A DNA stretch of 19,243 nucleotides from Bacteroidota bacterium. GTDB taxonomy: Bacteria; Bacteroidota; Bacteroidia; JACCXN01. The notes beneath the pieces were generated by a model. That model worked only from the letters and a program-made list of their open reading frames with translations, had not been told where the DNA came from and ran no database searches. Position 1 is the first letter of the stretch. Each line of letters begins with the position of its first letter. Below are positions 12,297 through 19,243 of this stretch, piece by piece. Made by a program: the position numbers and the translations under genes. Location: the NCBI GenBank assembly GCA_013696965.1, contig JACCXN010000053.1, positions 1-19,243 of the forward strand. The letters run 5' to 3'.

Positions 12297-12353
12297 GTAA
12301 TGGAATTCATTTTTCTCCCTTCAACGTAATGGAATTCATTTTTCTCCTTCAAC
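12297..12353. repeat. tandem duplication, 29 bp + 28 bp
   Basis: Two head-to-tail copies beginning GTAATGGAATTCATTTTTCT are at 12297-12325 and 12326-12353 and differ by one C. An inverted piece of the same sequence (AATTCCATTA) recurs near 12370-12379. On the minus strand the duplication covers the stop codon of the relic described at 12336-12490. Origin unknown: slippage during decay, or the edge of a lost mobile element. Confidence 0.85.
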
Positions 12354-17641: not shown

Positions 17642-18700
17642 ATGGATGTTGATTATCTTATTGTTGGACAAGGAATTGCAGGAAGTTTATTGGCCGAGGA
17701 ACTTATTAAACGGAATAAAAAAATTATTGTAATAGATAATAATCATCAAAGTTCTTCCTCCCTTGTTGCTGCAGGTTTATACAATCCAGTTGTTTTTAAA
17801 CGATTTACCAAAAGTTGGATGGCTGATGAGCTTATTCCTTTTGCAATAGAAACATATACCCACCTTGAAGAAAAATTAAAAGTAAAATTTCATTTCCAAA
17901 AAAACATCATTAAGGTTTTTGCCTCTGATGATGAATTTAATCTTTGGGAAAAACGAAGATTGGAAAATCATTTTATGCTTTCTGCCATTAAACACAATAA
18001 GGAATTGGAAAATTCAATTCATGCTCCTTGGGGTACTGGAGAAGTAAGTCATGCAGGAAATGTAAATTTGCCCCTGCTTCTTTCTTCTTTTAATAATTAT
18101 CTTAAAAAAGAAAATCTTCTTATAAATGAAAAATTGAATTACAAGGATATTATTTTTGAAAATAATGGCATTACATGGAAAAACATTAAAGCCGAAAAAA
18201 TAATATTCTGCGAAGGGCACAAAGCAATTAATAACCCGTATTTCAGCTGGCTTCCCTTTAAACTAACCAAAGGAGAATTGCTTAAGGTGGAAATAAATGA
18301 ACTGAAGTCAGAAAAAGTAATAAATAAAGGTGTTTTTATTCTCCCGGCAGAAAAAAGTATTTACCATGTTGGCGCAACATACAATTGGAATGAATTTACT
18401 GAACAGCCTACGCAAGAAGGCAAATCAGAATTAAAAGAAAAACTGGAAAAACTCTTAAAAGTGCCTTATACTATTTTAGATCATCGTGCAGGAATTAGGC
18501 CAACTGTTGAAGACAGACGACCTCTTATTGGTGCCCATCCAAAAAATAATTGTTTGCTTGTGTTTAATGGAATGGGAACCAAAGGCGTAATTATTGCTCC
18601 GTATTTTGCATCACAATTTGCTGATTTTTTAACAGGGAAAGCAATTGAAATTCATAAAGAGGCAGACATTTCAAGAGTATTAAAAAAAATAACTATTTAG
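17642..18700 (+). CDS. FAD-dependent oxidoreductase, DAO family
   Basis: 352 aa, one DAO fold. The dinucleotide-binding motif is GQGIAG (9-14) with the ribose-binding acid D32 after the second strand (IIVIDNN). AAGLYNPV (43-50) is the second FAD contact. Near the C-terminus are AGIRPTVEDRRPLIG and NGMGTKGVIIAP, which close over the flavin. Relatives include glycine/D-amino-acid oxidases and the C-terminal domain of MnmC; the substrate cannot be told from the sequence. No signal peptide or membrane segment, so cytosolic. It appears monocistronic: its own promoter upstream, and a repeat array and a separate exported-protein gene downstream. Confidence 0.88.
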   Translation: MDVDYLIVGQGIAGSLLAEELIKRNKKIIVIDNNHQSSSSLVAAGLYNPVVFKRFTKSWMADELIPFAIETYTHLEEKLKVKFHFQKNIIKVFASDDEFNLWEKRRLENHFMLSAIKHNKELENSIHAPWGTGEVSHAGNVNLPLLLSSFNNYLKKENLLINEKLNYKDIIFENNGITWKNIKAEKIIFCEGHKAINNPYFSWLPFKLTKGELLKVEINELKSEKVINKGVFILPAEKSIYHVGATYNWNEFTEQPTQEGKSELKEKLEKLLKVPYTILDHRAGIRPTVEDRRPLIGAHPKNNCLLVFNGMGTKGVIIAPYFASQFADFLTGKAIEIHKEADISRVLKKITI

Positions 18701-18759: not shown

Positions 18760-18818
18760 AAATTTATGAAATAGCCATGCACCAAACGTGCGCAAACACT
18801 AATGAATATAACATGGTT

Positions 18819-18836
18819 ATCCCGATAAATCGGGAT
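18819..18836. repeat. REP-like palindrome in unit 1
   Basis: ATCCCGAT, AA, ATCGGGAT: perfect 8-bp arms with a 2-nt centre. Such CCCGATAAATCGGG palindromes are common intergenic repeats in Bacteroidota genomes, from general knowledge. It could act as a terminator-like or mRNA-stabilising hairpin within the leader. Confidence 0.85.
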
Positions 18837-18916
18837 GACAGTTAAAAAACAAATTATATACATATGAAATAGCCATGCACGAACCGTTCACAAACGCTAA
18901 TGAATATAACATGGTT

Positions 18917-18934
18917 ATCCCGATAAATCGGGAT
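18917..18934. repeat. REP-like palindrome in unit 2
   Basis: An identical copy of the 18-bp palindrome lies at the same place in the second repeat unit, 98 bp from the first. The third unit has CTATACCATATGAC there instead, so the palindrome was lost, or never gained, in that unit. Confidence 0.85.
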
Positions 18935-19050
18935 GACTCTTAAAAAACAAATTATACACATATGAAATAGCCATGCACAAACCATGCACAAACAGCAATG
19001 AATATAACCTGGCTATACCATATGACTATTAAAAAACAAATTATATACAT

Positions 19051-19243
19051 ATGAAAAAATTCTACATCCTTTTTCTGCTTCTGCCTTTCCAGGTATTCTC
19101 GCAAATTTCATTGAATTGGACAGACACGCTTGTGGTAAACAGATTTACCCCGAATGCTTTTACAAGACCAAAAATTGCATTAACCAAAAATAACGTTCCT
19201 GTTGTAATGTGGGGAAGAAAACCAAACCAACGGGTATTTGTTT
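19051..19243 (+). CDS. exported protein, N-terminal part (runs off the window), possibly BNR/propeller-like
   Basis: An open frame from ATG 19051 to the window end, 64 codons. A clear signal peptide (MKKFYILFLLLPFQVFSQ) is followed by ISLNWTDTLVVNRFTPNAF and RPKIALTKNNVPVVMWGRK. The pattern of a proline, a short strand ending in A or L, then NNVPVVMWG resembles a blade of BNR/sialidase-like beta-propellers, often found in T9SS-secreted Bacteroidota proteins. That resemblance covers only 20 residues, so function is not assigned. Its 5' leader is the last copy of a repeated sequence, which may bear on its expression. Confidence 0.75.
   Translation, partial: MKKFYILFLLLPFQVFSQISLNWTDTLVVNRFTPNAFTRPKIALTKNNVPVVMWGRKPNQRVFV

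Follow-up and report, generated by a model that had tools for sequence, protein, structure and literature searches.

Introduction

Among the described elements closest to the locus studied here are the REP sequences, whose length is given as 20 to 40 nt (PMC3733652) or 21 to 65 nt (PMC6006769) in the sections of these two papers on which we draw. For Bacteroidetes, the corresponding section of PMC6006769 (Quentin et al. 2018) states that RAYT genes of subclass 2.6 are flanked by "atypical secondary structures," which are weak, do not carry GT[AG]G, and have copies elsewhere in the genome. Here, we analyze an array of three tandem units in front of a gene start on a Bacteroidota contig (JACCXN010000053.1, assembly GCA_013696965.1). 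The window, i.e., the whole stretch of DNA that was analyzed, comprises 19,243 nucleotides. Its array most probably goes back to a noncoding and nonautonomous mobile DNA element of about 90 to 98 bp that inserted into one site three times independently, irrespective of the enzyme that moves it.

Results

An array of three units precedes a gene start

The array begins 65 bp after the stop of a gene encoding an FAD-dependent oxidoreductase (positions 17642 to 18700, PF01266), and this gene and the features of the array lie on the forward strand. Direct reading reveals three units in head-to-tail order, namely, copy 1 (18766 to 18863, 98 bp), copy 2 (18864 to 18961, 98 bp), and copy 3 (18962 to 19050, 89 bp). 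Units start with ATGAAATAGCC and end with TTAAAAAACAAATTATA(T/C)ACAT, i.e., ...TTAAAAAACAAATTATAYACAT, and are followed by ATGAAA. Copies 1 and 2 belong to a hairpin variant (CCCGATAAATCGGG), whereas copy 3 is a variant without the extra hairpin (ACCATATGAC). Only the fourth ATGAAA, at 19051, opens a gene. Its open reading frame (ORF), MKKFYILFLLLPFQVFSQ... (19051 to 19243), has a signal-peptide-like N terminus and runs off the window; the 64 residues that lie within the window have no match in Pfam. This arrangement of units with a common leader, first described in a sequence-only reading of the locus, is also recovered by Tandem Repeats Finder (18765 to 19016; period, 98; matches, 90%; score, 404). 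Another tandem repeat, of two 29-bp units with 96% matches, is located at 12297 to 12353 of the window.

The units belong to a dispersed family

With the array as the query, the host genome (3.86 Mb in 106 contigs) yielded 55 matches, many of them at contig ends. The left end ATGAAATAGCCATGCAC is present 158 times when up to three mismatches are allowed, compared to 5 times for a reversed control pattern. The right end TTAAAAAACAAATTATATACATATGAAA and an alternative tail module (GCTTTAGCATTC...TTCCTTA) are found 105 and 33 times, respectively, with 0 control matches for either. A genome search for further copies of the leader or unit had been proposed from the sequence alone, and these counts answer it: the array is not private but one instance of a dispersed family with about 150 left ends. 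In 528 kb that were read, a sample picked largely around copies, 131 units are distributed over 66 arrays, of which 26 consist of one unit, 24 of two, 10 of three, and the others of up to six; a 127-nt overlap between adjacent contigs means that a few loci enter these numbers twice. Full copies mostly measure 86 to 101 bp.

None of the copies examined contains a Y1 transposase gene. No autonomous copy was encountered either: of the two fully read left ends without an ordinary right end, one is a truncated copy and the other is a longer module variant. A composite long copy (C29:297-480, locus L118) combines the usual left end with another middle part, containing AACAATTCCATATGACC, and the usual right end before a gene start, as if variants had exchanged modules.

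At least 15 contig ends are located in or beside arrays, making the element family a main cause of assembly breaks. Two contig ends, C35 (80470) and C73 (13224), have different upstream arrays but the same terminal 127 nt, of which 49 nt lie beyond the start codon of one gene. This common end may reflect a duplicated gene start, population variation, or an assembly artifact.

Insertion is precise and occurs at TGAA

On contig C42 (position 47857), a 90-bp unit splits a Y1_Tnp gene (IS200-like transposase, PF01797) that has an intact paralogue on contig C4. The left flank corresponds to residues 1 to 87 of the paralogue and the right flank to residues 90 to 177, with 88 to 89% identity. Judging from this alignment, the intact paralogue represents the empty site, and the split gene has gained exactly one unit at TGAA with no host bases lost. 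Units on C29 and C100 appear to split phosphatase-like and PAS-type genes, respectively, as identified by eye.

Among 188 units of the host genome and Algoriphagus-type genomes, TGAA is the sole sequence common to both junctions. The base to its left varies with the host, the base to its right varies with the gene (ATGAAT, or Met-Asn, starts exist), and the inner bases are set by the element; variation at the left copy is underestimated, as the left-end patterns used for unit collection fixed part of it. The element can thus be written as approximately A-TAGCC...CANA between two TGAA copies. In the window, the outer copies of the target tetranucleotide are 18767 to 18770 and 19052 to 19055. 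At the right end of copy 3 (CATATGAAA, 19048 to 19056), CAT and the A of ATG are assigned to the element, and TGAA forms the right junction. Some right copies deviate from ATGAA, e.g., ATTAA, which counts against reading the units as insertion elements. The base before ATGAA is T in 40 of 42 first units, in contrast to 24 of 70 gene-start ATGAAA sequences (p about 1e-16), marking a strong preference for T. Changes of GTG or TTG to ATG start codons at four loci (L129, L206, L317, and L362) fit an A that is brought by the element, although they cannot serve as proof because the same pattern would arise if the left copy, which is dispensable, had mutated afterward.

Gene starts are frequent landing places

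By hand classification of the 528 kb read, approximately 34 arrays are at gene starts and 16 are elsewhere, so that about two-thirds of the sites that could be evaluated have TGAA within the ATGAAA start of a gene. Under a stricter rule, in which a gene start requires an ORF of 60 amino acids or more, this holds for the last units of 22 out of 43 cases in the host and 64 out of 82 Algoriphagus-type copies. The downstream genes are of unrelated kinds, and units are also present within genes and at intergenic sites other than starts. For comparison, a 400-kb sample contains 842 ATGAAA sequences, of which 70 are gene starts, 667 are within genes, and 105 are elsewhere in intergenic regions, with genes predicted by a simple ORF caller at a minimum length of 90 codons. 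The gene-start excess is mostly explained by selection against insertions within genes. What is left is some preference for starts relative to other intergenic sites, which depends on gene calling. Strand bias is confounded because the orientation of the element is fixed by the start codon.

Arrays grow from different copies

The nearest neighbor (or a tie) lies in the same array for 6 of the 79 units of multiunit arrays, compared to a mean of 1.7 and a maximum of 8 with shuffled labels. In the window, copies 1 and 2 are closest to units on contigs C13 and C32, respectively, and copy 3 is identical to a unit on C99; these are three separate arrays. On these relationships, arrays are built up as different copies insert one after another into the same site, and tandem duplication is excluded as the main route. 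The initial suggestion that one element had inserted several times directly behind codon 2 and left a scar was therefore essentially right: the unit is dispersed, only TGAA is duplicated, and the three units have their closest relatives in three different arrays.

The competing suggestion, a 5' leader with mini-ORFs that is varied by recombination between units, finds no support. Units of the same array are hardly more alike than units of different arrays, and the rarity of nearest neighbors within an array speaks against such recombination for the array in the window. Moreover, the putative Met-Lys-stop mini-ORF (ATG-AAA-TAG) is specific to copies with TAG as the third codon and, from the copies compared, is not conserved between species: by eye, the matching frame has about 24 open codons in Algoriphagus-type copies, compared to about 19 in those of Chryseobacterium and Dysgonamonadaceae. 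An encoded peptide was considered for the 22-codon frame that follows ATG-AAA-TAG in copies 1 and 2 and was rejected, as one-base length differences break this frame in sister units. The units may nevertheless influence expression of the downstream gene.

Relatives occur in other Bacteroidota

The right-end pattern matches 24 stretches of named Bacteroidota contigs. The taxa include Algoriphagus, Chryseobacterium, Sphingobacterium, Pedobacter, Galbibacter, Fluviicola, and Dysgonamonadaceae, and an uncultured Bacteroidetes metagenome-assembled genome (MAG) has six matches. Most of the stretches continue with an ORF from the matched ATGAAA, and most have a left ATGAAA 60 to 170 bp upstream. The right-end version of the host itself was matched in 4 of 395 genomes of a phylum sample, the host included, indicating that close relatives of this version are rare. 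The host order is sparsely sampled within Bacteroidota. Algoriphagus-type versions amount to about 80 to 100 per genome in the three genomes searched, while two genomes of the host family (G001 and G002) have no copies and viral contigs have no match to the right-end pattern. Across the three Algoriphagus-type genomes, for which the sampled loci are incomplete, the element-bearing genes gave one weak overlapping pair among 64 proteins, as expected from lineage-specific insertion.

A conserved stem and a guide-like stretch

The main hairpin of copy 1 consists of a 5' arm, ATAGCCATG (18771 to 18779), that pairs with a 3' arm, CATGGTTAT (18812 to 18820), and both arms show compensatory changes between species. 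In an alignment of 26 sequences, 83% of main-stem cells are paired, compared to 25 to 48% for slid versions, and 12 cells are altered on both sides, compared to 4.0 in shuffles; as the stem pairs were picked after viewing the alignment, this test leans toward structure. The conserved fold is a single covarying stem at the left end. A second hairpin, ATCCCGATAAATCGGGAT in copy 1 (18819 to 18836), is optional, being present in copy 2, missing from copy 3, and absent from many other copies. The element had no match above the gathering score in an Rfam scan of the window and six relatives. A DUF805b RNA (RF02914) scores above the gathering score at L171:4217-4252 of Algoriphagus yeomjeoni.

The right end, CANATGAAA, can pair with a guide-like stretch, TTCCATNTG. 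At base N, 69 of 89 Algoriphagus-type units show complementarity (28 expected, p < 1e-4; G-C, 30; C-G, 23; A-T, 16); more weakly, the base before ATGAA in the target is complementary to the guide in 23 of 55 cases (15 expected, p = 0.011, one of several comparisons), with both p values too small because copies of common descent are not independent. In copy 3 of the window, the equivalent stretch would be ACCATATG (19017 to 19024), complementary to the right-end CATATG; its assignment relies on the covariation between the guide and the right-end base in other copies. Many host units have a hairpin in place of the guide, and no guide could be parsed in 48 of 84 units, so it may be dispensable in some copies.

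The non-Watson-Crick cells of the main stem in Algoriphagus-type copies include conserved G-A/A-G, and G-T outnumbers A-C, which suggests that the leader-sense strand is the one that folds. A guide of the IS200 type, 5' of the hairpin foot, would need the strand opposite the leader, and the apparent folding of the leader strand speaks against it.

Candidate mobilizing enzymes

The host has 12 Y1_Tnp genes and six other carriers have 3 to 10, compared to none in the two element-free genomes of the same family. Sphingobacterium faecale and Pedobacter nyackensis, with one right-end match each, have no Y1 match, and a third single-match genome has one weak Y1_Tnp match. In element-bearing genomes, the examined Y1 genes are bordered by other palindromes, and only in a few cases (e.g., L261, L265, and L392) does the fetched stretch contain copies of the element; at L261, two copies lie downstream of the RAYT gene. 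Y1 genes were rejected as carriers of the element, as the inspected flanks show other repeats. Several palindromic repeat families unrelated to the element are found in the flanks of Y1/RAYT genes at L048, L049, L051, L054, L384, and other loci. Retroposition was also dismissed, given that the host genome has no RVT_1 match.

Discussion

In the mechanism that we propose, the element would insert at TGAA, nearly always within (T)ATGAAA, leaving TGAA on both sides without loss of host bases. The target would often be met at gene starts, where ATGAAA (Met-Lys) is common, and insertions inside genes would mostly be selected away. A gene would keep a start after insertion because the right end of the element carries an A-rich leader and the A of ATG. 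As ATGAAA is also left on the left side, later insertions could hit the same place and build an array. A trans-acting enzyme is envisaged to recognize the hairpin, with the guide positioning the cleavage site.

As to this enzyme, our preferred, though tentative, candidate is a single-strand transposase, namely, a Y1 (HUH) enzyme related to those of IS200 and RAYT. We consider it just as possible that an enzyme of another kind, such as a tyrosine or serine recombinase or an RNA-guided or bridge-RNA type, chooses TGAA via the internal guide. In line with this, the guide pairs with the right end and to some extent also with the target, and the leader-sense strand appears to fold. However, searches for Y1_Tnp and RVT_1 yielded no candidate gene for it, and reverse transcription is unlikely without an RVT_1 match in the host genome.

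We regard it as rather unlikely that the units are REP sequences of a known type, namely, the "atypical secondary structures" beside subclass 2.6 RAYT genes, moved by those enzymes. The examined multicopy carriers do have Y1_Tnp genes and the two element-free relatives do not, and the structures are characterized in the cited section of PMC6006769 as weak, as lacking GT[AG]G, and as having further copies in the genome. Nonetheless, the subclass 2.6-like genes, assigned via residue motifs, are flanked by other sequences, and the REP lengths stated in the cited sections of PMC3733652 and PMC6006769 are shorter than those of the units.

A regulatory 5' leader, in which the repeats are retained for the influence of their mini-ORFs or hairpins on the level or variation of secreted-protein gene expression and copy number changes through recombination between units, is improbable. 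The position of arrays directly before start codons, the compensatory changes in the main stem, and the 127 nt common to C35 and C73, which could reflect rearrangement between arrays, would be in line with it. Against it stand the unrelated kinds of downstream genes, the units inside genes and at nonstart intergenic sites, the lack of conservation of ATG-AAA-TAG, and the observation that array units have their nearest relatives elsewhere; element-bearing genes also hardly overlap between the Algoriphagus-type genomes. Local tandem duplication by replication slippage, despite the exact phase of the head-to-tail units, is highly implausible, being contradicted by the different subvariants in one array, which match units elsewhere better, and by single copies at many sites.

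If the array indeed results from repeated insertion, the right end of the element, by supplying a leader and completing ATG, would allow it to settle at start codons without destroying genes. In one genome, the 5' leaders of dozens of genes would have been replaced, a clear example of how mobile DNA can exchange leaders. The element would also give rise to errors when Bacteroidota genomes are annotated and assembled. A bolder and decidedly speculative extension is that guide-bearing elements throughout Bacteroidota pick start codons by base pairing, with a single guide pairing with both its own end and the target. A change of the guide base would then shift target preference, a ready-made leader and start codon would be provided, and the enzyme could be a new guide-dependent transposase. 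Should the guide set the target, this would be a natural base-pairing-directed insertion system at gene starts.

Comparison with known systems

The element is absent from Rfam, and the literature searched contained no description of it. It shares several properties with the REP/RAYT systems, including those of Bacteroidetes subclass 2.6: it is short, noncoding, and multicopy, has a hairpin, is mostly intergenic, is present as single and clustered copies, and is presumably mobilized in trans; its multicopy genomes also contain Y1 genes. Unlike REP (20 to 65 nt), it measures about 90 to 98 nt, has no GTAG/GGAG foot, resides at the TGAA of start codons, and brings along both a leader and the A of ATG, and the Y1 genes are not flanked by it.

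Similar to IS200/IS605 (HUH, Y1), the element has no terminal inverted repeats and shows a tetranucleotide at both junctions without a longer target duplication. A hairpin and a candidate internal guide, which pairs with the region of the cleavage site, may be further common features: one stem at the left end covaries while a second hairpin is optional, and the guide-like stretch lies 5' of the hairpin foot only on the strand opposite the leader, whereas the leader strand is the one that appears to fold. In contrast to these insertion sequences, the element has no transposase gene, and the Y1 genes have other flanks; a single hairpin and a single guide-like stretch apparently serve its two ends together, and its guide pairing extends over about 7 to 9 nt.

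Like MITEs and other small mobile sequences (RU-1/2/3, BOX, RUP, and RPE), the element is short, dispersed, and nonautonomous and is sometimes found within genes. It differs from MITEs in that its ends, TAGCC and ATACA, are not inverted repeats and no autonomous copy was found, as well as in its start-codon context and its strict orientation toward the downstream gene.
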